Source: Trachythela sp. YZ-2020
Lineage: Eukaryota > Cnidaria > Anthozoa > Malacalcyonacea > Clavulariidae
Length of the DNA: 64,000 nucleotides
Reading direction: 5' to 3'
NCBI GenBank assembly: GCA_016169945.1
Contig: JADLSH010000216.1
Span: 464,501-528,500, forward strand
Part shown: positions 9,630-63,439 of the stretch, in pieces
How the letters are laid out: every line of letters starts with the position of its first letter
Position numbering within the stretch: position 1 is the first letter of the stretch
Notes under the pieces: model-generated
Database searches by the model: none
Seen by the model: the letters and a program-made list of their open reading frames with translations, nothing else
Told to the model about the DNA's origin: nothing
Position numbers and translations under genes: made by a program

Positions 9630-9903
9630 ATATGTCAGGAAATTCAAGGATCGAATATCTTTAGCGCTGAAGAGAAGGCGTTAGAAAGCTCACAAACTCG
9701 CGGATAGTCGCTAATGGATAGTCGCTAATGCTCGCAACGGATAGTCACTAATGCTTACAAACTCGCATTATATATCACTAATGTGATAGGTGCCGTAGTG
9801 CTATCATCTAAAGTGCTATTTAAAGTACATTCCAAGCAAGTTACAGTTATATTGAAGTAAATATATCTAAATTGAGAATCGTCGAATATTGACGAATTTG
9901 GTT

Positions 9904-11049
9904 ATGTTAAATTTGGCTTGGACTGGCGATTTTGAATCGCTAAAGCTGTTTGTAAACGAATCTTTTAATCTCGAAGGAAGTTGGTCTAATCCTGGAGGTG
10001 ATAAAAAAGTATTTAAGTACGAAGATTCGGTAATCTCGTGGAGGAAAAATACAGGTTTGCTCAGTTTTGAAGGAGCAAGAGCGAAAGAATTTAAAAAAGT
10101 GATATGTAAACAAATATGTGAGGGCGACCTGATGTCTGTTGAAGCGTCCACTTTAGAAAATGGTCATTCAAGCAAATCGTCCGAGCTATTTGAGGACATA
10201 GAGAGTATTAAACTCGGCCAGTCTATAAACGGAGAAGCAATTCAAGCAATGTCGGAGTCTTTGTTACAAATTACATCTGTTTTATCACAATTTCAAAATT
10301 TTATGAGGGAAAACCAAGTCAATAAAGTCAATTCCGACGAATCTATCTCAGTGAAGTCAACAGTGGACATGAATATGAATGGTGCCGATGATAATCATAC
10401 CATTGTGCTAGAACAATCAATTGATTCAACTAAAGAAAACCTTGGGGACAGTTTGTCACAGCTAATTGCCATGCAGGATAATAGATCAACACCAAGTATG
10501 AATGCATAATGTATTCATCAGGAAATTGAAGAAAACGAGATTGCATTTAATTTAAGTCAACCTTGTGGCGAGAAATCTCAAAGATCCTATTCTCAGGTGG
10601 TATCATCTCAAACCAAAGCAAACAAATTTGGAGAAAAGTCTAACATCTGTAAAGGTCCAAACGTCGCTGCCTCTCAACTAGGCGGGTCTAGAGAGTCACC
10701 AGATAATGTTACAGACGGTTTTGTTGGGGTGGAGAGAAAGCGTAACAAGATTAAAAAACTTTTCTTATCCGGAATTAATGAGAATGTAAAGGAATATCAA
10801 ATTCAGTCTTATTTAATTGAACGAAATATAACCCCTACCTACATCTCTGTTTTCCCTAGTCGACGTAAAGGAACATGTTCGGCAAAAGTTCATATTCCAT
10901 CTACTGTAAGCTCATTAGTACAAGAGGATAATTTTTGGCCAGATTTTGTAAAGTGTACACTATGGCAACCAAAAAAGAAAGATGACAGTGAAACCACTGA
11001 GCGTAGAATTAAGATGACCCATGGGGGAAGTTATTCCACGTACGTTTAA
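9904..11049 (+). pseudogene. LINE ORF1 protein (RNA-binding, RRM-like), copy A, one in-frame stop
   Basis: The first ATG of the frame is at 9904. The N-terminal half (FVNESFNLEGSW..PGGDKKVFKYED..LLSFEG) is a small domain seen in LINE ORF1 proteins. The C-terminal half from about codon 275 (GFVGVERKRNKIKKLFLSGI, then FWPDFVKCTLWQPK) looks like the RRM-type RNA-binding part of such proteins. A TAA at 10507-10509 interrupts the frame, and the frame then continues open to TAA 11047-11049. Copy B has the same stop at the same place, so it predates the segmental duplication. The product would coat the LINE RNA. Confidence 0.7.
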
Positions 11050-13984
11050 TGGCCCAAATTCCTGTTAGAATTACTTCACGAATATTCCGATCAAGGAAGA
11101 ACAAACAGAACAAAAGTAATTTGTTGAAAATTCCGGTAACTAAATGCCAAATGCCTATTATAAATACGAGATTTGTTAAGGCTAATAATTTGATCAAAAT
11201 CTCCACATCAGGCAATAAAAATGTAGTAAAACGGGTGTTGCCAAACATATTACTTTTAATGCTAGATCACTTCTCAATAAAATAGATGAAATGACGATTA
11301 TTATTAATCAACAAAATGCGGACGTAATCATGGTGACCGAAACTTGGTTGACGGATGCTATTCCCGATGAAGCCGTACATCTTCCCAATTTCACCGTAAT
11401 TAGGAAAGATAGGCCAACTCGAAGAGGTGGGGGCGTAGCCATATACATAAGAGAATCACTTCCGTTTAAAATTCGTTCAGATTTGAACAGTTCGGACTAC
11501 GAATGTCTGTGGATTACCCTACGACCGAAATGGCTTCCAAGAAAAATCTCAAAACTAGCACTTGCGTGTGTATACTTGCCACCGTCGATAAATACCGAAG
11601 CAGTTGAAAGGTTTTATGAATATTTTTGCTGCTGTTACGATGCTCTTATTAGCGAGAGTCCAAATACATCAATTACTATTACTGGCGATTTTAATCCAAA
11701 AAGTAATGGGTTCCAGGAAAGAGTTCTTATAAATCACTGTAAGTTAAAACAAGTAATCAAATCACCAACTAGAGGATCAGCAATTCTAGACTTAATCTTG
11801 ACGAATGCCCATTCTTATTATGAGAAACCAATATTTCTGGCACCGATTGGCTGTTCAGACCACTGCGTTATTATATGGAAATCTAAAGAACAAGCCCAAG
11901 ATAAAAATAAGACAAGAAAGATAACAGTTAGACCCATCAAATAAACAAGGTTGCGCTTGTTTGAAGAATGTATCGGACTGGAGACATGGTCAGCGGTTTA
12001 TGATGCTCCGTGTATTAACACCAAAGTGGACGCCTTTTTATCGATTACTAATGCAATGATTGATAACTGTTTTCCAACAAAAACTGTCAAGGTCCATAAA
12101 GATGATAAACCTTTTATGACTGGGAGGATAAAACAAATGATATCTAACAGAAATAAAATGTATCAACGTGGGAGAATGGATGAATACAGGTCGCTTCGTA
12201 ATAAAATTATCTTAGAGATTCGGAAAGAGAAGCAGAAGTATTACAGAGAAAAAATCAAACCTGCCAGATGTTCTAATTCGAAGCAGTGGTGGAAATATAT
12301 AAAAAATATTGTCGGGAAGAGTAAACAAGATTTTATTCTAAGTAACCCAGAGTCTGATACCCCATTAAATTCGAAAGATACTGCTAATCTTATGAATGAT
12401 TATTTTACCAATCTTACTAGTAATTACCCGGAAGTACGTGATGGGTGGTTTAATGTTGGAATTGAAGGGCAACTACCGCACATCACTGCAGACAGTGTAA
12501 CCAAAAAGCTAAGTAAACTTAACCCGAATAAAGCAAGTGGCCTGTTCGACCCAAATGTGAAGTTAATAAAAATTTTCGCAAAGTATTTCGCCGAGCCGTT
12601 AAGTTACATTTTCAATGAATCATTTACTCGTAGACTATTCCCAGATATTTGGAAAATTTCGAAGGTATGTGGAATTCCAAAGAGTAAGCCCTGTTCTACG
12701 GTGGACCTCTTAAGACCAATTTCATTAACGAGTACTCTATCGAAGGTACAAGAATCGTATGCCACCGAATGGATTTACGAAGATGTTCATGATAAGATCA
12801 GTAACAGTCAATTTGGCGGACTACCTAGAACATCGGCAATACATGCATTAATCTACCTGTTACATAAATGGCATATGGCAATGGATAGCCCAGGAAAGAT
12901 TGCTCGTATTATGTTTCTTGATTTTAGGAAAGCCTTCGATCTAATCGATCATAACATGTTGCTAGATAACTTTATTCAAATTGGGGTTCGTCCGGCTGTA
13001 GTTGGTTGGCTTGCATCATACTTTTACAATAGATCGCAAGTAACGTCTTTTCAAGGAGAACAATCCGATTTTAAAAGAATCAAGGGAGGCGTTCCCCAGG
13101 GGAGTAAGCTGGGTCCAATTGCTTTCATAATTAAAATAAATCAATTACCAATGTCTATCGTACCCAAAGACCAAAATCAAATAAGTAATGCTGTTGAAGA
13201 TCAAGATACAGTTATGTTTATGGATGACACAACATTGCATGAAGTAATTAATATCGCTAATCATTTAGATGGTAACCCCATTGGTAATACTCAAATGAAT
13301 GTAGATAAAGTGATACAGTTTGCAAAGGATGAAGGAATGGAATTGAACGGCAAAAAGTGTATGGAGATGATTATTGATTTTAGGAAAAATAGATCGACGA
13401 TACCCCCAATTCATATTGGCGGTTGCAATGTATCTCGTACAAAATCATATAAATTATTGGGAATATGGTTAGACGATGATCTAAAATGGAAATCTAATAC
13501 TGAATATGTCACAAAGAAAGCGGCAAAGCGTCTGTATTTATTAAAGATTTTGAAGAGTTATGGCGCCCCCACGGGTGATTTGTTATCATTCTACTGTACA
13601 GTAATTCGTCCCATTCTAGAATATGGTGCAGAGATTTGGAGCGGAGGTCTAACACAAGAACAGAAGAATAGTATTGAACGAATTCAAAAACGATCACTTA
13701 GAATAATTTGCCCAAAGCAAGATTATGATCAAGCATTAATCGAGACCAAATTACAAACTTTGGAGGAACGTAGGGATGATTTATGCGTATCCTTAATTAA
13801 GAAAATGGTAGAGCCAAATCATAAACTTCATAGCTTATTACCAATGAAACTAGAATATGTTAGACAAAAGAAAACAAGAGCTAATACTCAAAGGATATAT
13901 AATTTCTCTTGTAAAACTGAACGTTTTAAACATAGTACATTGGTTTATTCTATAGACTTGTATAATTCTAAATTAGTTGATTAG
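11049..13984 (+). pseudogene. LINE ORF2: AP-like endonuclease plus reverse transcriptase, copy A
   Basis: ORF2 starts within TAATG, overlapping the ORF1 stop by one base. The endonuclease has TETW, RRGGGVAIYI, ITGDFN and GCSDHC. The reverse transcriptase has MFLDFRKAFDLIDHNML, GGVPQGSKLGP, FMDDTTLHEV (in place of the usual FADD) and KLLGIWLDDDLKW, then a C-terminal region ending SLRII..LETLEERR. Two breaks are seen. A T-run at about 11253 is one base shorter than in copy B and shifts the frame before the endonuclease. An in-frame TAA at 11942-11944 separates endonuclease and reverse transcriptase and is shared with copy B. The 677-codon reverse transcriptase part is otherwise uninterrupted. 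Confidence 0.85.
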
Positions 13985-26228: not shown

Positions 26229-27107
26229 TTGCAAGGGCACAATAAGATACAAATAAACAAACAAATTCGACAGACGGATCGATGATAAATAAAGAACAAA
26301 TGAAAATTTGGAATATTATTTAATGGTGCTTAAGGCTGTTTTTCATTTAAATCGTATTGCACCGGAACGTAGCGTATCTCTTTGTTTCCTGAGCACTTAC
26401 GCTAGAACTTATAACTTTGACATGAAAGAAAATGCTACGGTAGGTTGCGATACATTTAATTTGAATAATGTAAACAGCCATTGCAGTTACAAATTCCAAT
26501 TTTAGATTATCAGTCTTTTTTACACACAAGTCTCAGTACTCCCCTTAAGGTTAATATCTACTAATTAAGAAATAGAAAACATTTTCCGTGTTTCTATACA
26601 CTTATAGAAACACGCGTATGAGTTTGGGAGAACGAGAAATAATTCAGTGGGAAAACGAGCCCGTAGGGTGAGTTTTTCCACGTTATTTCGAGTTCTCCCA
26701 CAAGTGTTTCTATAAGTGTATAGAAACACATGAAAAAATGTTTTCTATTTCTTTTATAATATAACTCAAACGACATTTTTAAACTCGATTAATTTACAAA
26801 TTCTCATTACGTACGCATGCTGACCTTTGCTCGTCAATTTCGCTGCAAGAAAACAACTCTGTTTGAAAATTAACAGTCAAAAATGTGCAAAAGCATTAAA
26901 ATTGTTTTTAAATAACATTCAAAGTTTTATAATTCGCATTGAATTTGTTTTTTTTATGATTTTAAATTTTGGCGGGAAAATTTCCGTGTTTCTATACAGT
27001 TACAGAAACACGCTTCTCGCCCAATCAGCACGCGCGTACTATAAATGTTATATTATAAATACCTATAGTTTCTTAAGAAAACTAGCTATTTTCGGCTCGT
27101 GCAAGTG
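26229..27107. other. Duplicated stretch with a foldback MITE and the empty target site of the Polinton-like element
   Basis: 26568-26755 is a foldback around CGTGTTTCTATACACTTATA and its complement. In unit 2 the 3986-bp element at 49117-53102 is inserted in the middle of this MITE, and here the site GGGAAAACGAGCCCGTAGGG near 26650 is empty. 26980-27025 carries another CCGTGTTTCTATACAGTTAC hairpin. Confidence 0.7.
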
Positions 27108-31235: not shown

Positions 31236-32361
31236 ATGTTAAATTTGGCTTGGACTGGCGATTTTGAATCGCTAAAGCTGTTTGTAAACGAATCTTTTAA
31301 TCTCGAAGGAAGTTGGTCTCATCCTGGAGGTGATAAAAAAGTATTTAAGTACGAAGATTCGGTAATCTCGTGGAGGAAAAATACAGGTTTGCTCAGTTTT
31401 GAAGGAGCAAGAGCGAAAGAATTTAAAAAAGTGATATGTAAACAAATATGTGAGGGCGACCTGATGTCTGTTGAAGCGTCCAAGCAAATCGTCCGAGCTA
31501 TTTGAGGACATAGAGAATATTAAACTCGGCCAGTCTATAAACGGAGAAGCAATTCAAGCAATGTCGGAGTCTTTGTTACAAATTACATCTGTTTTATCAC
31601 AATTTCAAGATTTTATGAGGGAAAACCAAGTCAATAAAGTCAATTCCGACGAATCTATCTCAGTGAAGTCAACAGTGGACATGAATATGAATGGTGCCGA
31701 TGATAATCATACCATTGTGCTAGAACAATCAATTGATTCAACTAAAGAAAACCTTGGGGACAGTTTGTCACAGCTAATTGCCATGCAGGATAATAGATCA
31801 ACACCAAGTATGAATGCATAATGTATTCATCAGGAAATTGAAGAAAACGAGATTGCATTTAATTTAAGTCAACCTTGTGGCGAGAAATCTCAAAGATCCT
31901 ATTCTCAGGTGGTATCATCTCAAACCAAAGCAAACAAATTTGGAGAAAAGTCTAACATCTGTAAAGGTCCAAACGTCGCTGCCTCTCAACTAGGCGGGTC
32001 TAGAGAGTCACCAGATAATGTTACAGACGGTTTTGTTGGGGTGGAGAGAAAGCGTAACAAGATTAAAAAACTTTTCTTATCCGGAATTAATGAGAATGTA
32101 AAGGAATATCAAATTCAGTCTTATTTAATTGAACGAAATATAACCCCTACCTACATCTCTGTTTTCCCTAGTCGACGTAAAGGAACATGTTCGGCAAAAG
32201 TTCATATTCCATCTACTGTAAGCTCATTAGTACAAGAGGATAATTTTTGGCCAGATTTTGTAAAGTGTACACTATGGCAACCAAAAAAGAAAGATGACAG
32301 TGAAACCACTGAGCGTAGAATTAAGATGACCCATGGGGGAAGTTATTCCACGTACGTTTAA
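31236..32361 (+). pseudogene. LINE ORF1, copy B, frameshift and in-frame stop
   Basis: It starts at ATG 31236. A deletion of 20 bases relative to copy A at about 31482 (short repeats flank the lost piece) shifts the frame. The TAA at 31819-31821 is the same as in copy A. The RRM-like C-terminal part (31909-32361) is unchanged from copy A and ends in the TAATG overlap with ORF2. Confidence 0.7.
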
Positions 32362-35300
32362 TGGCCCAAATTCCTGTTAGAATTACTTCACGAATATTCC
32401 GATCAAGGAAGAACAAACAGAACAAAAGTAATTTGTTGAAAATTCCGGTAACTAAATGCCAAATGCCTATTATAAATACGAGATTTGTTAAGGCTAATAA
32501 TTTGATCAAAATCTCCACATCAGGCAATAAAAATGTAGTAAAACGGGTGTTGCCAAACATATTACTTTTTAATGCTAGATCACTTCTCAATAAAATAGAT
32601 GAAATGACGATTATTATTAATCAACAAAATGCGGACGTAATCATGGTGACCGAAACTTGGTTGACGGATGCTATTCCCGATGAAGCCGTACATCTTCCCA
32701 ATTTCACCGTAATTAGGAAAGATAGGCCAACTCGAAGAGGTGGGGGCGTAGCCATATACATAAGAGAATCACTTCCGTTTAAAATTCGTTCAGATTTGAA
32801 CAGTTCGGACTACGAATGTCTGTGGATTACCCTACGACCGAAATGGCTTCCAAGAAAAATCTCAAAACTAGCACTTGCGTGTGTATACTTGCCACCGTCG
32901 ATAAATACCGAAGCAGTTGAAAGGTTTTATGAATATTTTTGCTGCTGTTACGATGCTCTTATTAGCGAGAGTCCAAATACATCAATTACTATTACTGGCG
33001 ATTTTAATCCAAAAAGTAATGGGTTCCAGGAAAGAGTTCTTATAAATCACTGTAAGTTAAAACAAGTAATCAAATCACCAACTAGAGGATCAGCAATTCT
33101 AGACTTAATCTTGACGAATGCCCATTCTTATTATGAGAAACCAATATTTCTGGCACCGATTGGCTGTTCAGACCACTGCGTTATTATATGGAAATCTAAA
33201 GAACAAGCCCAAGATAAAAATAAGACAAGAAAGATAACAGTTAGACCCATCAAATAAACAAGGTTGCGCTTGTTTGAAGAATGTATCGGACTGGAGACAT
33301 GGTCAGCGGTTTATGATGCTCCGTGTATTAACACCAAAGTGGACGCCTTTTTATCGATTACTAATGCAATGATTGATAACTGTTTTCCAACAAAAACTGT
33401 CAAGGTCCATAAAGATGATAAACCTTTTATGACTGGGAGGATAAAACAAATGATATCTAACAGAAATAAAATGTATCAACGTGGGAGAATGGATGAATAC
33501 AGGTCGCTTCGTAATAAAATTATCTTAGAGATTCGGAAAGAGAAGCAGAAGTATTACAGAGAAAAAATCAAACCTGCCAGATGTTCTAATTCGAAGCAGT
33601 GGTGGAAATATATAAAAAATATTGTCGGGAAGAGTAAACAAGATTTTATTCTAAGTAACCCAGAGTCTGATACCCCATTAAATTCGAAAGATACTGCTAA
33701 TCTTATGAATGATTATTTTACCAATCTTACTAGTAATTACCCGGAAGTACGTGATGGGTGGTTTAATGTTGGAATTGAAGAGCAACTACCGCACATCACT
33801 GCAGACAGTGTAACCAAAAAGCTAAGTAAACTTAACCCGAATAAAGCAAGTGGCCTGTTCGACCCAAATGTGAAGTTAATAAAAATTTTCGCAAAGTATT
33901 TCGCCGAGCCGTTAAGTTACATTTTCAATGAATCATTTACTCGTAGACTATTCCCAGATATTTGGAAAATTTCGAAGGTATGTGGAATTCCAAAGAGTAA
34001 GCCCTGTTCTACGGTGGATCTCTTAAGACCAATTTCATTAACGAGTACTCTATCGAAGGTACAAGATCAGTAATAAGATCAATATCATGATAAGATCAGT
34101 AACAGTCAATTTGGCGGACTACCTAGAACATCGGCAATACATGCATTAATCTATCTGTTACATAAATGGCATATGGCAATGGATAGCCCAGGAAAGATTG
34201 CTCGTATTATGTTTCTTGATTTTAGGAAAGCCTTCGATCTAAACATGTTGCTAGATAACTTTATTCAAATTGGGGTTCGTCCGGCTGTAGTTGGTTGGCT
34301 TGCATCATACTTTTACAATAGATCGCAAGTAACGTCTTTTCAAGGAGAACAATCCGATTTTAAAAGAATCAAGGGAGGCGTTCCCCAGGGGAGTAAGCTG
34401 GGTCCAATTGCTTTCATAATTAAAATAAATCAATTACCAATGTCTATCGTACCCAAAGACCAAAATCAAATAAGTAATGCTGTTGAAGATCAAGATACAG
34501 TTATGTTTATGGATGACACAACATTGCATGAAGTAATTAATATCGCTAATCATTTAGATGGTAACCCCATTGGTAATACTCAAATGAATGTAGATAAAGT
34601 GATACAGTTTGCAAAGGATGAAGGAATGGAATTGAACGGCAAAAAGTGTATGGAGATGATTATTGATTTTAGGAAAAATAGATCGACGATACCCCCAATT
34701 CATATTGGCGGTTGCAATGTATCTCGTACAAAATCATATAAATTATTGGGAATATGGTTAGACGATGATCTAAAATGGAAATCTAATACTGAATATGTCA
34801 CAAAGAAAGCGGCAAAGCGTCTGTATTTATCCCCGAGCCGGCGCGAAGCGCCGTGCGAGGGTACTAATTCCGCTCGGATATTTACACCCGGAAAAACAGG
34901 AAAGCAATGGGAAATCCAAAGTTCATAAAGTTTTGCGGGCGCATGGCTATGTTTCATGGGTGTGATGGGAGTGATGGGTGGTCATCTCACTAATCTTTGT
35001 TAGGAGTGGAATGAGCGAATTATAAAAAAACATGAGTAAGTCATATCAGTAAGTCTGAATTATAACTTATAAATAGCTTTTTGGGACTTCAGGAAAAGCT
35101 GCGGAACAAATTTATCGTTTATACTTTATAAAAAAGGATAAATATAGATAGATGGTCGAAAAAATATGGCAAGTTTCTTATATTAAATTGTTGATATAGC
35201 CGTAAGAATGTTGTTTTATTTACATAGATTTTCATTTTTTTACAATTAAATATCCTATATTTTATGCTATCAAAAAGTTCCAACTTAAAAGGAAAGCGAA

Positions 35301-36378
35301 ATCGTTTCACACGAGAGAATTTGTATATTTTCAACTGATTTCATTTAAAAAACTAATTTATAAGTAAAAGGCAGTTTAGTTTTATAAACTTTTGGCAACG
35401 TTTTAGTAAACGGAAGGTTGCATTTAAACATTAATTTGAAGCTTATAGAATGCATAAGAACATACCTACACCATATATCTCAGATTTGTATGGCTAAAAC
35501 AACTAATATTTTAATTATATTTGTAGTTTTTGTAACCTGTTGTTTTGTACTCCAGAAAAGAAGTTTATTTTATCGTGTTGCCATGGCTATTGTGCTTCCT
35601 CTTCTTGAAACAAAATTTCCATTTTTTATTCTTTCAAAATAAATTTCCCAAAATAATATTGTTTCCTTCCACTCTTCTTTCCAAACTATTAGAGTAATGA
35701 TCAAAATTTTAATGGCAAATTTAAAAGAAAGGAAGCCACAGTGATTACGTCAGGTAAAACATTTCATTTGGCGATAGCCTTTGATTGCGTCGTGAAGAGG
35801 GGTGTGAGCCAAGGATCCAATTCTGTTTTCTATGCCAAAAATTTGTTTTGAACGCAGATATCCGACTCGCCTACAACCTTTGCATGGCAGATTTTTTGAT
35901 AAAAAAGATAGCAATAGTAATGTTTTGGAATGTAATGTCTGGCAATGTTCAGCTGGGGCGAGGGGTTACTGCAAGCATGTATTTCTAGTTAAAGATTTTG
36001 AAGAGTTATGGCGCCCCCACGGGTGATTTGTTATCATTCTACTGTACAGTAATTCGTCCCATTCTAGAATATGGTGCAGAGATTTGGAGCGGAGGTCTAA
36101 CACAAGAACAGAAGAAGAATATTGAACGAATTCAAAAACGATCACTTAGAATAATTTGCCCAAAGCAAGATTATGATCAAGCATTAATCGAGACCAAATT
36201 ACAAACTTTGGAGGAACGTAGGGATGATTTATGCGTATCCTTAATTAAGAAAATGCTAGAGCCAAATCATAAACTTCATAGCTTATTACCAATGAAACTA
36301 GAATATGTTAGACAAAAGAAAACAAGAGCTAATACTCAAAGGATATATAATTTCTCTTGTAAAACTGAACGTTTTTAA
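32361..36378 (+). pseudogene. LINE ORF2 endonuclease/reverse transcriptase, copy B, interrupted
   Basis: The 298-codon first part (32361-33257) is an intact AP-like endonuclease with NARSLLNKIDE, TETWLT, ITGDFN and GCSDHC. It therefore supplies the frame that copy A lost. TAA 33255-33257 is shared with copy A. The reverse transcriptase then runs to 34073, where copy-A sequence is replaced by short repeats of AAGATCA-type filler. It resumes from 34173 with a 9-base deletion inside the first catalytic motif (FDLNML in place of FDLIDHNML). The frame is finally split by the Helitron-like element, and the C-terminal part continues at 35989-36378. Confidence 0.8.
34830..35988 (+). mobile_element. 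Non-autonomous Helitron-like element
   Basis: Compared with copy A, exactly TCCCCGAGCC...TTTCTAG is added between GTATTTA and TTAAAG, with no target duplication. A 5' TC, a 3' CTAG and insertion between A and T are the hallmarks of Helitrons. Just inside the 5' end lies the GGCGCGAAGCGCC hairpin. The usual GC-rich hairpin about 10 bp before CTAG is not obvious. No Rep/helicase coding is present in its 1159 bp; the open frames at 35418 and 35785 show no known domain. Confidence 0.75.
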
Positions 36379-48769: not shown

Positions 48770-49058
48770 ATCATACTAGTATACTATTGCAAATGCTGTA
48801 ATTTGATTGGCTACGCTACTCGCTATCTAATTGTCGATAGATAGCGAGTAGCGAAACAGCCATCTCCTCGGCGCGATTTTTAACGAATTTATTTCAATAA
48901 ATTATGAAAAACGTTTTGAAATACTGTTTTCTTGCTGGTTTCTACTAAAACAATTAGATTATTCGCTCTCGATTTCTATGAGATGATAGTTCATTCGGGC
49001 TTCGCCCTCATCAACTATCACCTCATAGAAATCTTGAGCTCATAATCAAATTGTTAAA
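48770..49058. mobile_element. Hairpin-rich MITE private to unit 2
   Basis: Unit 1 lacks this block at about 26602. It contains two nested hairpins: CTACTCGCTATCTA with its complement, and TTTCTATGAG..AACTATC with a CGGGCTTCGCCC loop. Possible borders are TA on both sides. It has no coding capacity. Confidence 0.65.
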
Positions 49059-50151
49059 TAGAAACACGCGTGCATGTGAGTTTGGGAGAACGAGAAATAA
49101 TCAGTGGGAAAACGAGAGTAGATAAGACCCCCCATCCAGCAAAATTTTCCCGCCATATGACGTCAGCATTTTGAGGATCCCGCCATATGACGTCATTTGC
49201 GTAGATACGCGTAGATACATGTAGATACATGTGGATATGCGTAGATACGCGTAGATACACGTGTTTCCGCGTATCTAGGCGTAGATACGCGTATCTACAT
49301 GTATCTACTTATGTTTCCGCGTATCTATACGCGTGTTTCCGCGTATCTACGCGTAGATATATGTAGATGCATGCGGATATGCGTAAATACGCGTAGATAC
49401 GCGTAGATACATGTAGATGCATACGGATATGCGTAGGTAGTAGTAGGAGAGTGGGGGTTCTAAGACGGGTGGAGCGGGTGGAGCGCCTTGCTCCACCCAT
49501 GACGTCATCATTTCTTAAGTATTTTAATTTATTCACGCCCACGTTAATTTATTTTAGCTTACTACAGTGCCAATGGCTTTTCTTAACATTTTTGAACCGC
49601 TCCGTTTGTTTATCTACAGTTTTAAGGATTGGTCCTCTGGGATTGGTCTGTCGAGTACAACATAGAACCTTTGAAAAATATTTGAAATTTACTAAAATTT
49701 TCAGCTTATATGCAACTAAAATGCTCCTACCGCATGCGATGCATCGATAACGCAAATCATACCCATGTATACGCATGCGCAGTAGTAATAACGTTTAAAA
49801 TTTACTAAAATGTTCAGATTATATGCAACTGAAATGCACCTACCGCATGTGGTGCATCGATTACACAAATCATACACAATTATACGCATGCGCAGTGGTG
49901 GTTTTTTATTAGGGTCGATGCGGGGTCGATGTGAGGTCGATGTAGGTCGATGTGAGGTCGATGTGAGGTCGATGTGAGGTCGATGTAGGGTCAATGTAGG
50001 GTCGATGTAGGGTCGATGGCCAAACAAGCCAAACAAGCCAAACAGGCCAAACAGGTCAAAAAGGCCAAACAGGCAGGAGCAGGAATGACAAGAAACCATT
50101 TTATTTGTAATATGGTCGTGTAAGTATGCCTTGTACGTACGCAATGGGATT

Positions 50152-50247
50152 TTATAGCAGTTGTCTGGAAATTCTCTTGAACTTGTTTTGAATCTGATAT
50201 CCGTCCATATCAATTACCGCAACAATCTCCGATATTTTGCAAGCCAT
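50152..50247 (-). CDS. Short ORF in the left inverted repeat, possible relic of a larger Polinton gene
   Basis: 31 codons: MACKISEIVAVIDMDGYQIQ then NKFKRISRQLL. A TATAAAAG box lies about 32 bp upstream of the ATG. The VIDMDG start reminds me of the first residues of larger cnidarian element proteins, but I cannot confirm it. The identical ORF is at 51980-52075 (+). Confidence 0.4.
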   Translation of the reverse strand: MACKISEIVAVIDMDGYQIQNKFKRISRQLL

Positions 50248-50539
50248 GGTGATCATATGTGAATGTGTTGTTGGCCTGCTTTTATATAGAATTTTAGCAT
50301 TGCTAAACGTATCTATATGTACTTACATGTATATACATATCCAGGTGTATCTACGCGTATCTACGCAAACGACACCATATTGAATACTAATTACTTACGC
50401 CGTGGGTAAATTACACGGAGATACATGTATCTACGAGTATTTACGCATATCCAGGTGTATCTACGCACATTATCACGTGCGTTTCACGTGCGACCTTGGC
50501 CATTGACCTTAATCATAAAAGCGCGCGAATCTCTTTACA

Positions 50540-50547
50540 TATATAAG
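50540..50547 (+). promoter_or_regulatory. TATA box of the plus-strand core gene
   Basis: TATATAAG lies 32 bp before the ATG at 50579. It is inside the inverted repeat, so the minus-strand core gene has the same box at about 51669-51676. Both genes therefore share one promoter sequence, including AAAAGCGCGCGAATCTC upstream. Confidence 0.65.
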
Positions 50548-50578
50548 GTTGACCTTTCTACATAGTTTGACATCCGTC

Positions 50579-51108
50579 ATGGATCAACCTAAATTTATGC
50601 GCGCACGGCTCAACGAACACAGAATGCCAAAGTAAACATCAGTAAGCATCTACAGTAAACATCGCTATAGCACGTCAAAAATCAGCAATAAGTACCTCAC
50701 AAACATGTCCACATTTTTATCGCAACAGGAGAGAGGGACGATTGCGTAATGTCATAATAAAAAGGTCTTATCAGTGCTAACGATGTGTATATTTTGAGGA
50801 TGAGTTTCTGACTAACAAAATATGTGTGCATAGATCAAAATGTTTTACTTAGACTCCAAAGATGTGTATCATACGGGTTGGAGGCCATAGAACGAGTAAT
50901 CGAAAGAGGAATAGTTTGGAAACAGTTTATCGAGGCTGTCCGTGTGCTGAAGTTGGACTACTACGAACACGCTGCAGAGCATTTTAAAGATTTGGGAAAA
51001 GATCATGAAGTGACTCTTAGTTTCTTGATGAACTTGAGACAGAGTTCGGACTTTTCTGATTACCAAGCAATCTTGGGGTATCTTTCTTACTGGATTGACG
51101 ATCAATGA
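50579..51108 (+). CDS. Core gene 1 of the Polinton-like element, small helical protein (about 102 aa)
   Basis: Proposed exons are 50579-50631 and 50853-51108. Exon 1 is MDQPKFMRARLNEHRMPK and ends at GTAAAC. A GACTAAC branch-point-like word and a TTTTACTTAG acceptor precede exon 2, and the phase fits (309 nt in all). Exon 2 encodes an acidic, helix-rich protein (GLEAIERVIERGIVWKQFIE, then HFKDLGKDHEVTLSFLMNL, ending YWIDDQ). No ATG begins the exon 2 frame, which supports splicing. AATAAA lies at 51199. No family is recognised. The first seven bases of coding sequence are shared with core gene 2 through the repeat. Confidence 0.6.
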
Positions 51109-51338
51109 ACATTTTTATAAGACGATACGATAGTTGTTCAGCTAAACATTTATAAAGTTATTTAGCGAAGTAATAGTTATACGGTATTCACGTAAGAAAT
51201 AAATTGTTTGAGTACAAACCCATTTTAAACTTTTTTCTTCTTATGTGGAACTTTGATTATCGAGACAATGTGCAAGAGACACTATTATAAGTTCATGTGT
51301 AAAAAAAAAAGTATGTTAACATGAATAAATCGAATTTC

Positions 51339-51378
51339 GTTATAATCTTTCGTGATTGTGGTGGCTCTGAAAAGAGCC
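51339..51378 (-). terminator. Replication-dependent histone-type mRNA 3' end (stem-loop plus downstream element)
   Basis: The minus strand reads GGCTCT-TTTC-AGAGCC, then ACCACAATCACGAAAGATT. The first part is the canonical 6-bp stem and 4-nt loop bound by SLBP. The ACCA that follows is the usual cleavage context. The purine-rich CGAAAGA about 10 nt further matches the element that pairs with U7 snRNA. It lies 13 nt after the stop codon of the 81-aa ORF. Confidence 0.8.
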
Positions 51379-51391
51379 GGTTTTTTTAGTC

Positions 51392-51637
51392 TCAAGGAAG
51401 AGACGAGTCCAGTTCCGGGAGAGACGGGCCAAGATCCGGGAGATCGTCCATCCACTGTGTATCGTCTTCTAGGAAGTCGATACCTGCACCGTCTTTATAC
51501 TCCTCCTCGAATTTGAGAAGTAATTGTGGGGCCTCGCGCTGGAAAAATTCGTTGAGGGTCTTCGCCTTGGCTGCCTCTTCTTTCTTCTTGTAATAATTTT
51601 TCTTTGCCCGTGCGGCCTCTCGCTGTTTTCGATCCAT
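51392..51637 (-). CDS. Core gene 2 of the Polinton-like element, basic/acidic 81-aa protein with histone-type 3' end
   Basis: The ORF begins MDRKQREAARAKKNYYKKKE, a lysine/arginine-rich helix. It continues with LNEFFQREAPQLLLKFEEE and ends in an acidic, proline- and leucine-containing tail (DFLEDDTQWMDDLPDLGP..). A basic N-terminus with an acidic C-terminus would fit a small nucleic-acid-binding or activator protein, but that is inference. It is intronless. The TATA box is about 32 bp upstream inside the repeat. The stop is followed 13 nt later by a perfect histone-type stem-loop (51363-51378) in place of a poly(A) signal. It is not a histone by sequence. Confidence 0.7.
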   Translation of the reverse strand: MDRKQREAARAKKNYYKKKEEAAKAKTLNEFFQREAPQLLLKFEEEYKDGAGIDFLEDDTQWMDDLPDLGPSLPELDSSLP

Positions 51638-53102
51638 GACGGATGTCAAACTATGTAGAAAGGTCAACCTTATATATGTAAAGAGATTCGCGCGCTTTTA
51701 TGATTAAGGTCAATGGCCAAGGTCGCACGTGAAACGCACGTGAAACGCACGTGATAATGTGCGTAGATACACCTGGATATGCGTAAATACTCGTAGATAC
51801 ATGTATCTCCGTGTAATTTCCCCACGGCGTAAGTAATTAGTATTCAATATGGTGTCGTTTGCGTAGATACGCGTAGATACACCTGGATATGTATATACAT
51901 GTAAGTACATATAGATACGTTTAGCAATGCTAAAATTCTATATAAAAGCAGGCCAACAACACATTCACATATGATCACCATGGCTTGCAAAATATCGGAG
52001 ATTGTTGCGGTAATTGATATGGACGGATATCAGATTCAAAACAAGTTCAAGAGAATTTCCAGACAACTGCTATAAAATCCCATTGCGTACGTACAAGGCA
52101 TACTTACACGACCATATTACAAATAAAATGGTTTCTTGTCATTCCTGCTCCTGCCTGTTTGGCCTTTTTGACCTGTTTGGCCTGTTTGGCTTGTTTGGCT
52201 TGTTTGGCCATCGACCCTACATCGACCCTACATTGACCCTACATCGACCCTACATCGACCTCACATCGACCTCACATCGACCTACATCGACCTCACATCG
52301 ACCCCGCATCGACCCTAATAAAAAACCACCACTGCGCATGCGTATAATTGTGTATGATTTGTGTAATCGATGCACCACATGCGGTAGGTGCATTTCAGTT
52401 GCATATAATCTGAACATTTTAGTAAATTTTAAACGTTATTACTACTGCGCATGCGTATACATGGGTATGATTTGCGTTATCGATGCACCGCATGCGGTAG
52501 GAGCATTTTAGTTGCATATAAGCTGAAAATTTTAGTAAATTTCAACAAAGGTTCTATGTTGTACTCGACAGACCAATCCCAGAGGACCAATCCTTAAAAC
52601 TGTAGATAAACAAACGGAGCGGTTCAAAAATGTTAAGAAAAGCCATTGGCACTGTAGTAAGCTAAAATAAATTAACGTGGGCGTGAATAAATTAAAATAC
52701 TTAAGAAATGATGACGTCATGGGTGGAGCAAGGCGCTCCACCCGCTCCACCCGTCTTAGAACCCCCACTCTCCTACTACTATCTACGCATATCCGTATGC
52801 ATCTACATGTATCTACGCGTATCTACGCGTATCTACGCATATCCGCATGCATCTACATATATCTACGCGTAGATACGCGGAAACACGCGTATAGATACGC
52901 GGAAACATAAGTAGATACATGTAGATACGCGTATCTACGCCTAGATACGCGGAAACACGCGTATCTACGCGTATCTACGCATATCCACATGTATCTACAT
53001 GTATCTACGCGTATCTACGCAAATGACGTCATATGGCGGGATCCTCAAAATGCTGACGTCATATGGCGGGAAAATTTTGCTGGATGGGGGGTCTTATCTA
53101 CT
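51631..53102 (-). repeat. Right terminal inverted repeat of the Polinton-like element
   Basis: This is the mirror of 49117-50585, differing only by a few bases and small indels by eye (for example one extra ACGCACGTGAA unit near 51725). Such near-identity means recent insertion or gene conversion between the arms. Confidence 0.9.
51980..52075 (+). CDS. Short ORF in the right inverted repeat (copy of 50152-50247)
   Basis: Same 31 codons, beginning MACKISEIVAVIDMDG, with TATAAAAG at 51941-51948. It reads outward, away from the core. Downstream frames contain the CTTGTTTGG and CATCGACC arrays, so a longer product would be low-complexity. Confidence 0.4.
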   Translation: MACKISEIVAVIDMDGYQIQNKFKRISRQLL

Positions 53103-53563
53103 AACGAGCCCGTAGGGTGAGTTTTTCCACGTTATTTCGAGTTCTCCCAAACTCCCACAAGTGTTTCTATAAGTGTATAGAAACACAGGAAAAAATGTTT
53201 TCTATTTCTTTTATAATATAACTCAAACGACATTTTTAAACTCGATTAATTTACAAATTCTCATTACGTACGCATGCTGACCTTTGCTCGTCAATTTCGC
53301 TGCAAGAAAACAACTCTGTTTGAAAATTAACAGTCAAAAATGTGCAAAAGCATTAAAATTTGTTTAAATATCATTCAAAGTTTTATAATTCGCATTGAAT
53401 TTGTTTTTTTTATGATTTTAAATTTTGGCGGGAAAATTTCCGTGTTTCTATACAGTTACAGAAACACGCTTCTCGACCAATCAGCACGCGCGTACTATAA
53501 ATGTTATATTATAAATGCCTATAGTTTCTTAAGAAAACTAGCTATTTTCGGCTCGTGCAAGTG

Positions 53564-61461: not shown

Positions 61462-62400
61462 TTACGGAAATTTACCGAGCATTTCCGCAGAATTTAGAAT
61501 TCCTTCAAATGTCAGACCCTCCGGGTCTCTGTCCATGTCATCAGCTTCTGCAATCCCTTTCTTCATATGTTCTTGCGATGTTTGCAGTGCCATTCTTTCC
61601 AGTTGTTTCGTAATTTCATTTAAACTTCTCTTCATTTCGATATTGTCCGCTTCAAGCCGACGGTTGCTTTCTTCCTGCTTGTTGAGTTGTTCTTCCTGGC
61701 TGTTGAGTTGTTCTTCCTGCTTGTTGAGTTGTTCTTCCTGGCTGTTGAGTTGTTCTTCCTGCTTGTTGAGTTGTTCTTGAACAAGTTCAACTTTTGCAAC
61801 CACATTTCCCACCTCTGCCTTTAAGGTCTCCTCATTTCTGTCCAACTTTTTCTCATTTTTGTCCAACTTCACATTCATCGATGCCAAATTAACTTTTACT
61901 ATGTCTATTTCTCGGCTGATTTCGTTGCAACTATGACATTTAACTCTTCGTAGTTCACACACGATCGTTTCATGGTGAAGTTTATCCTGTCTATTTACTT
62001 CTTGTCCACATCCTTCGTTAGAGCAGACTGCTGGGGCGAATCCACACTCTGTAAGATGCCTTTCAAGATCTCCCAGCTCGAGAAACTTTCCACATCCACG
62101 ATCAAAGAATTCACATCGTATTTTTAATTCAGACAGTAAGTTAGTTACGGTTCGTGGTGCCTGACGCAACGTGTCGACAGTGAGTTCTTCCATACACGAA
62201 GGACATGTCTGAAAGTTCATGAGATGTGGAATGATGCAAGATCGACAAAGCAAATGCTCATTTTGTCGACACATGACGGGATCCTTCAAAACATTCGTAC
62301 AAATGCTACAATGCAAAGTGTGGCCAACGGGATGTTGAAATCGTTCATCTTCATAACCAGTGTCGTATGACGCCATTTTCTCTTTACAACAAGAATACAA
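61462..62400 (-). CDS. RING finger / TRAF-type zinc finger protein with coiled coil (312 aa), likely E3 ubiquitin ligase
   Basis: The frame is intact and intronless. Residues about 31-70 form a RING finger (CSIC..DPVMC..EHLLCRSC..CPSC), which in this family recruits E2 enzymes. Residues about 95-165 hold two TRAF-type zinc fingers (CEFFDRGCGKFLELGDLERH, then CGFAP..CSNEGCG, CELRRVKCHSC). The rest is a long coiled coil with a tandem 7-residue repeat alternating NKQEEQL and NSQEEQL (about 207-245), then an acidic tail ending LGKFP. There is no MATH domain. A second ATG nine codons in (62376, context AAAATGG) is the likelier start. The repeat is encoded by 21-bp tandem units that could vary in number. 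Confidence 0.85.
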   Translation of the reverse strand: MYSCCKEKMASYDTGYEDERFQHPVGHTLHCSICTNVLKDPVMCRQNEHLLCRSCIIPHLMNFQTCPSCMEELTVDTLRQAPRTVTNLLSELKIRCEFFDRGCGKFLELGDLERHLTECGFAPAVCSNEGCGQEVNRQDKLHHETIVCELRRVKCHSCNEISREIDIVKVNLASMNVKLDKNEKKLDRNEETLKAEVGNVVAKVELVQEQLNKQEEQLNSQEEQLNKQEEQLNSQEEQLNKQEESNRRLEADNIEMKRSLNEITKQLERMALQTSQEHMKKGIAEADDMDRDPEGLTFEGILNSAEMLGKFP

Positions 62401-63439
62401 TGATCAATGTTGAATCAATTTCTTGTGGTCAAAGGCGTTTGCATCCATGACATGTATTTCTTAAAAATCAGCAACTTGAGAAATAGTTGATAAAAGAAAA
62501 GATGTTAGATATCGTCATAAACTTAACTGAGACGAAACGGCACAGTGTGAGTTTCAAACACTAGTAGTTAAAATTCAGATATTCATGACTTTGCACAGCC
62601 GTTCTGCATCAACAAATATGTATTAAAGGCAAGCATAGAAAAGAGGTCTAATCTGTGGATTGTTGAACCAAAATCAGCTCAAACAGTCAAGAAGACGTCT
62701 AAATTCTAAAAGTAAGAATCTTGCTAAGCTTCTAATATCTATTGACCATTTCTTTCGTGGTCTCTTCAGAAATTCATTGTGTGGTTAATAGTCGACGTTA
62801 AAGCGCCGCTGTCGCTTCGATATGCCTATTTAAACTTCCTTGTATATATAATTTCATTACCTTGTATTTACTTCATTTTTGTCGTTTATTTACATCGTTA
62901 AAGTTTGAAACACCGTCCTCGAGGCTTTATTTGATGAAAATAATGAACCGTCGTTTGGAAGAAAAGGCAAAATCGTTTGAGATAAAATGTCTGTGTTTAG
63001 TTTCAGTTTGACTTGAAGACATCTCAACGTAATTTCATACATATTCAATTACATTGAAATTGCGACATTGTGCAAATCAATCTTAATTGTGACTAAAGTT
63101 CATGACCCCATAGGCTACTTTGACTTGAAATTTGCTAAGCAGAATGCAATCTTTCCTTGTGATGATTATAACACCGGAATTTCCATCGACATTGTACTGT
63201 GTTACCCAAAATTCTGAGTCAGCTTATTTTCAGTTTACAATGTATTAATAGTCTTGAGTTTATGTAGGTGTCAGTATTTATCAATAATTGAATTCGGTTT
63301 TCGAATGATATGAAGAAGTTTGTGTTATCTGAGGCGAATAACACAAACAGAGACCTGGAATCTAGATAAATCAATAAATTGTTTTATTATTAAAAAAGAT
63401 ATAAAAGACACCGCACCTGTGGGTTAAATTCTTAAAATA
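62401..63439. other. Upstream region of the RING/TRAF gene
   Basis: Contains the presumed promoter of the minus-strand gene; no clear TATA box. 63360-63439 resembles 23640-23740 and 46300-46400 and leads into the ORF at 63440. Nothing else is recognised. Confidence 0.4.

Follow-up and report, generated by a model that had tools for sequence, protein, structure and literature searches.

Small genes of Maverick/Polinton elements in the genome of the anthozoan Trachythela sp. carry a histone-type 3' signal and thereby likely enter the host SLBP/U7 histone-processing pathway, a reading to which we assign a probability of roughly 0.78. As far as is known, the histone stem-loop hardly occurs outside histone genes. 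The mRNAs of the histone 3'-end pathway are cut a few nucleotides past the stem-loop, lack a poly(A) tail and build up during S phase. The element genes share this ending with the host histone genes, and their messages are therefore likely to lack poly(A) and to be made mainly during host DNA copying. The copy described first lies in a stretch of 64,000 nucleotides that was analysed as a whole and is called the window below.

The stem-loop and gene A in the window

Gene A (51392..51637, minus strand) consists of 81 codons and a TGA. The stem-loop GGCTCTTTTCAGAGCC (51378..51363, minus strand) starts 13 nucleotides after this TGA and is followed by ACCACAATCACGAAAGATTATAACGAA, in agreement with the preliminary description, which had placed it, on the minus strand, 13 nt 3' of the stop of an 81-codon ORF. 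The stem-loop was identified by sequence, mismatch scan, the Rfam Histone3 model (RF00032) and folding. The block downstream of it (51336..51362, minus strand) resembles a histone downstream element, with the purine element CGAAAGA (51352..51346) and AACGAA; it is kept in other copies and is similar to host histone 3' ends. The free-energy z-score of the hairpin is -3.67. RF00032 matched it with 32.9 bits (E 2.1e-7, 1,115 bases searched), slightly below the curated cut-off of 34 bits, and it was therefore missing from the matches of a whole-window Rfam search at that cut-off. The window stem-loop is real and not a chance hairpin. Nothing except the shortness of the hairpin speaks for chance, which is exceedingly improbable: with up to two mismatches allowed, the site is the sole match to GGCTCTTTTCAGAGCC in the window (0.01 expected); the 578-Mb genome contains 139 exact copies of the 16-mer and none of its reversed control; and the signal recurs after unrelated genes.

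The right inverted repeat of the element includes, at its inner edge, the first 7 nt of the gene A ORF and a TATA box (51670..51676, minus strand), and three CACGTG repeats (51726..51753, minus strand) are found upstream of the gene; the TATA box and the repeats were recognised as sequence motifs only. The gene A protein contains 14 K+R and 19 D+E. Its earlier characterisation as a basic protein applies to the N-terminal half (residues 1-47, pI 9.5) but not to the whole protein, which is acidic (pI 4.74), residues 48-81 having a pI of 4.1. The ORF, its homologues and a structure model of moderate confidence (mean pLDDT 66.5) indicate a predicted basic helix (residues 3-48, pLDDT about 70-84) followed by an acidic, disordered tail modelled with low confidence, and this predicted form suits a small regulator.

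In the public protein set, 31 gene A homologues were found among the matches listed at E <= 1. Ten of them read through the signal region in other frames, and in seven of these ten the peptide is compatible with the exact 16-mer; the peptides of P0025 and P0026 are incompatible with it, and P0031 fits a relaxed form only. Relaxed-form peptides number nine among all 151 proteins fetched, where shuffles predict 0.25; the ninth, which belongs to a gene B homologue, is likely due to chance. A query with gene A found nothing in GTDB contigs, and single-query searches of IMG/VR, which reach close relatives only, found no relatives of gene A, P0031 or the element ATPase. The exact 18-mer had 0 matches in IMG/VR. 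A degenerate stem-loop pattern picked out three IMG/VR contigs (L002-L004), which were rejected, their ORFs looking phage-like and RF00032 giving no match up to E 1; one contig (L001) picked by a 20-mer of the inverted repeat was also set aside, as blastn at 1e-5 found nothing in it that resembles the element.

A Maverick/Polinton derivative

Gene A belongs to an element of 3,986 bp (49117..53102) that starts with AGTAGATAAG and ends with CTTATCTACT (AGTAGA...TCTACT), with AACGAG on either flank (49111..49116 and 53103..53108). These target site duplications were delimited by boundary comparison and, for the left copy, by a paralogous empty insertion site, GGGAAAACGAGCCCGTAGGG (26649..26668, plus strand), where another copy of the target repeat contains a single AACGAG. 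The 6-bp target duplication, evident from AACGAG and the empty site, and the inverted repeats with AG/AGT ends are Maverick/Polinton traits; in PMC8097293, 6-bp duplications and (AGT)2-type ends are given for vertebrate Mavericks. The target is a short palindromic repeat of the host; a second copy of this repeat, which carries no insertion, lies in the window (26577-26743, compared to the flanks in 49000-53200). The left terminal inverted repeat (49117..50585, plus strand), which begins AGTAGATAAGACCCCCC, and the right one (51631..53102, minus strand) were defined by inverted-repeat search and arm comparison. Only 7 substitutions and two indels, of 8 and 11 nt, separate the arms of ~1.47 kb, and the insertion is therefore likely young.

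Between and within the arms, several remnants accompany gene A. Its start region is duplicated in the left repeat (50579..50635, plus strand), with a stop after 18 codons. A truncated remnant of a second gene, gene B (31 aa; 51980..52075, plus strand), recognised by comparison to the full gene in L014 and L021, lies in the right repeat without its stem-loop and has a mirror copy in the left repeat (50152..50247, minus strand). ORF2 (50824..51108, plus strand), convergent with gene A and lacking a stem-loop, is the 3' part of another Maverick gene and belongs to a 17-member ORF cluster.

PolB (PF03175) was detected in the relatives L013 (E 4.5e-25) and L021 (E 2.9e-14), and the window copy lacks it. 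Since the same A region lies upstream of PolB in L013 and L021 and the window element is 96.3% identical to L021 over 1.2 kb (window 50857-52048), the window element is, as judged from homology, a Maverick/Polinton deletion derivative without PolB. It is also non-autonomous, because its gene B is truncated, and gene A alone keeps the signal there. The PolB assignment rests on L013 and L021 and not on P0031, which had no significant match in Pfam, PHROG or phage sets and whose C-terminal part is similar by eye to the PolB N-terminus of L021. A putative packaging ATPase gave weak, A32/FtsK-like matches to Pox_A32 below the cut-offs (E 0.0047 and 0.00095). An ORF in L031, presumably MCP-like (capsid), had no Pfam or NCBIfam match. 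No retroviral-type integrase stood out among the ORFs listed. The 6-bp duplication, the long inverted repeats with AGT ends and the PolB of the relatives, and tentatively the weak ATPase match, are shared with Maverick/Polinton elements of the adintovirus type (Eupolintoviridae), from which the elements described here differ by the histone-type 3' ends on some genes and the window copy by being a 4-kb derivative without PolB.

Two further Pfam matches, Bcl-2-like (L025, E 0.013) and HU-like (ORF2 family, E 0.0022), were below cut-off and were dropped. An element carrying gene C, the third gene with the signal (L025:1-9991), has inverted arms of >4.5 kb, both of which contain RING-like, GRF zinc-finger (E 1.2e-16), weakly LRRNT-like and weakly Bcl-2-like ORFs. 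Elsewhere in the window, two LINE-like retroelement copies were seen (9871-13984 and 31822-36378, the second broken), whose ORFs we take to be endonuclease-like and reverse-transcriptase-like, as well as an ORF (61462-62403, minus strand) that is presumably RING/TRAF-zinc-finger-like and contains an internal 42-bp tandem repeat.

Recurrence, likeness to host histone ends and conservation

Twenty stretches of up to 10 kb, picked among the 16-mer matches listed (100 of 139), were read for the genes that precede the signal. They contain 41 exact 16-mers. For 34 of these, the preceding ORF belongs to gene A, B or C and is 45 aa or longer, in some cases truncated; the other seven have no preceding ORF of that length. 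Seven histone peptides scanned in these stretches gave no match, and Pfam scans of A, B and C indicate that none encodes a histone. Gene A copies encode 81-122 aa, with the signal at +13 in intact copies. Gene B (178 aa), oriented divergently from A, has it at +13 in both intact copies read. Gene C (150 aa) is RING-like, with a zf-RING_2 match (E 1.5e-4) that misses the cut-off; its intact copies with a single stem-loop have the signal at +19 or +20. Gene D (L032), a diverged A-like gene with 31% identity to A, ends in GGTTCTTTTAAGAACC at +19, its stem showing a compensatory C-G to T-A pair under a TTTA loop; compensatory changes in other copies had been proposed as a check, and this is the one pair found. 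Overall, the signal is located 13-20 nt past the stop in intact copies of A, B, C and diverged A-like genes, as a 6-bp GC-closed stem with a 4-nt U-rich loop. RF00032 scores were above 34 bits for C (38.1), D (34.8) and distant A (38.9), and below this cut-off for A and B (28.3-32.9). The earlier proposal, a canonical 3' signal of the histone type at the end of a transposon gene, is supported by the recurrence of the signal after unrelated genes of the same element class and by its preservation in diverged copies.

No stem-loop was detected by 3' scans, RF00032 or a model of host histone ends (R1, below) downstream of the ATPase, MCP-like, GRF and ORF2 genes; the histone-type ending is therefore not a strategy of the whole element. 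A structure model of gene B (pLDDT 89) resembles the 3'-5' exonucleases DexA, RNase AS, REXO2 and arenavirus NP, and also the Maelstrom MAEL domain. The public protein set contains, at E <= 0.001, 221 homologues of the gene B family (L014:4390-4923, minus strand). Some C genes (L017, L020, L030) have two tandem same-strand stem-loops, 90 or about 208 nt apart.

As the elements have long inverted repeats, the hairpin might be thought to act on DNA, as an origin, a cruciform or a recombination site, rather than on RNA. This is very improbable in view of the intact copies, in which the hairpin is on the sense strand just past the stop and the host histone downstream element follows it in register, and of the RNA-type loop variants TTTC, TTTA and TCTA.

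The host histone genes provide the comparison. The genome has 59 histone-family matches, and 24 histone 3' ends were read, seven on contig C261 and 17 elsewhere. A scan found the signal in 13 of the 17 loci outside C261, as GGCTCTTTTAAGAGCC (8 loci), GGTTCTTTTAAGAACC (4) or GGCTCTTATAAGAGCC (1), followed by forms such as ACCACTTTCACAAAAGAATACAAACGAA; it found none in the remaining four, L062 (one nucleotide short), L063, L068 and L071. With RF00032, 5 of 11 host histone matches outside C261 also fell just below the curated cut-off. A covariance model, R1, was trained on the 13 host histone 3' ends alone and applied to 158,759 bases from 20 sources (the window plus 16 of the 40 stretches from elements and three from C261). 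It recovered all 20 stem-loop-bearing element ends supplied, with 42.2-52.9 bits for A, 49.7-52.2 for B, 52.5-56.7 for C, 62.3 for D and 46.0-56.7 for distant A, and found nothing in four distant A-like stretches without a stem-loop. The window match (51319..51388, minus strand) scored 50.3 bits (E 2.1e-7), and the single other match was a C261 histone with 22.5 bits. The 34 nt past the stem-loop in A, B, C, D and distant A also resemble the host histones (z 5.1-6.4, 0 of 500 shuffles each). The purine element, which the preliminary description had counted as part of the signal, accordingly matches the host's own histone 3' ends both in R1 and in this downstream comparison.

Contig C261 (200 kb) contains a tandem histone cluster whose stem-loop regions differ from what is seen in the remaining histone genes. 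It fits R1 poorly, the 22.5-bit match coming from one of the three stretches and the other two giving none up to E 1. Its H2B looks arthropod to us, and the contig may come from another organism, as a contaminant or an epibiont.

A protein search of the genome with gene A, blind to the stem-loop, gave 48 matches, resolved into 31 close and 7 distant loci. The exact 16-mer is kept in 28 of the 31 close loci, six of the 28 being judged from the coordinates of the 16-mer list alone; L040 and L051 each have one substitution in the stem, and the block is deleted in L041. Among the seven distant A-like loci, two have GGCTCTTCTAAGAGCC 15 nt past the stop, one has the same with a mismatch, and four (C31, C368:1056339, C280, C111) have no stem-loop, with AATAAA in two of them. 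A TCTA loop occurs in two distant A-like genes. Loss of the stem from copies that keep the ORF had been proposed as evidence against the signal, and on this point the close copies speak mostly for it and the four distant loci without it speak against it. The A-like subfamily without a stem-loop (L033, L034, L035, L039) includes members with DLNLDMDL-type acidic-hydrophobic tails, and AATAAA is present near L035 and L039.

Twenty-four A copies were aligned, seven of the 31 being left out (six known by coordinates only, one deleted). Minor alleles made up 2 of 384 cells in the stem-loop and 2 of 648 in the next 27 nt, compared to 75 of 1666 in the following 73 nt and 269 of 2760 over the final 120 nt of coding sequence. 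The block is thus conserved about ten times better than its flank. Variable columns numbered 4 of 43 in the stem-loop plus 27 nt and 36 of 73 just downstream (Fisher p 6.6e-6, a guide only, since the copies are not independent). The drop in conservation, after AACGAA, is near the point where the similarity to histone genes fades. In 29 C copies there was no excess conservation (1.5% in the stem-loop, 1.5% in the next 27 nt, 0.8% downstream), a test that is uninformative; these copies are young and had been selected through the signal. Gene B is represented by five copies only.

These data bear on the possibility that the 3' block is a passenger, acquired in a single capture from a histone gene and multiplied along with the element, with no present function. 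Such a capture is suggested by the resemblance to host histone ends over about 34 nt, by the many very similar copies and the C copies without excess conservation, and by an AATAAA in A copy L043 that could serve instead. We nevertheless consider it unlikely: the A copies keep the block far better than the flank, up to near the end of the histone similarity; it stands 13-20 nt from the stop in A, B and C, which are unrelated to one another, as well as in A-like genes with 31-34% identity to A; and D has its compensatory pair.

Probable use of the host 3'-end pathway and its implications

Poly(A) signals were considered as a further indication. No AATAAA or ATTAAA was found within 600 nt past A or B (five gene copies) or D (one copy). 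Gene C has an AATAAA at about 429 nt, and that of L043 is 132 nt past the stop. ORF2 has AATAAA 92 nt past the last sense codon (at 51198 in the window) and no stem-loop, in all four copies. AATAAA is likewise missing from the 600 nt that follow three element ORFs with no stem-loop, and its absence is therefore not diagnostic. Given these ORFs, the AATAAA of L043 and the AATAAA downstream in seven of the 13 histones behind R1, the poly(A)-signal evidence from the sequences is suggestive only.

Use of the host histone 3'-end pathway appears to be the least strained reading of these sequences. The element genes share with metazoan replication-dependent histone mRNAs (RF00032 plus the histone downstream element, SLBP/U7) the 6-bp stem, the 4-nt loop, the ACCA-type flank and the purine element, as well as the proximity to the stop and the match to the histone ends of this host. 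Unlike metazoan histone genes, they encode no histones and belong to a mobile, virus-like element. The host machinery would cut the pre-mRNA a few nucleotides past the stem-loop, and the mRNAs of A, B and C would have no poly(A) tail and would be stable and translated mainly in S phase. Gene A, with its basic helix and acidic tail, might act as an early regulator and gene B, with its exonuclease-like fold, as an accessory nuclease, both being made when host replication factors are on hand to copy the element.

A more specific proposal is that an endogenous Maverick lineage took over the histone 3'-end code as a cell-cycle switch. The regulatory genes close to the terminal inverted repeats would be expressed as poly(A)-less, SLBP-bound S-phase mRNAs and the other genes with ordinary 3' ends, so that early and late expression would be split by the 3'-end machinery. 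We hold this proposal tentatively, at slightly less than even odds. Somewhat less probable, although still a serious possibility, is that the poly(A)-less ends are real and that the gain lies in expression in the oocyte or early embryo, or where polyadenylation is limiting, rather than in S-phase timing. According to PMC12803260, histone mRNAs are stored in oocytes under special control, and for a genomic parasite it is presumably germline expression that counts; however, none of the present observations separates such a gain from S-phase timing.

The timing of a genomic parasite to its host by a histone ending is apparently unreported. Term searches found no mention of stem-loops or polyadenylation in PMC11071296 and PMC8097293, on Mavericks and adintoviruses, and no match for stem-loop, SLBP, polyadenyl or replication-dependent in PMC9145170. 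The latter describes virus-encoded histones, which share with the present case a link between DNA viruses and histone biology, there through histone proteins and here through the mRNA ending only. Searches of the literature on the histone stem-loop, SLBP, Maverick/Polinton/adintovirus elements, transposons and viruses, mostly outside subscription journals, listed no transposon or Maverick gene with a histone 3' end.

If use of the host histone pathway is confirmed, the element genes, which keep the complete 3'-end signal of the host histones together with the part expected to pair with U7, would be a natural second user of it. The timing of the expression and copying of integrated Mavericks becomes directly testable through RNA 3' ends. 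Poly(A)-selected RNA-seq would miss such transcripts, and 'silent' Mavericks may therefore not be silent.
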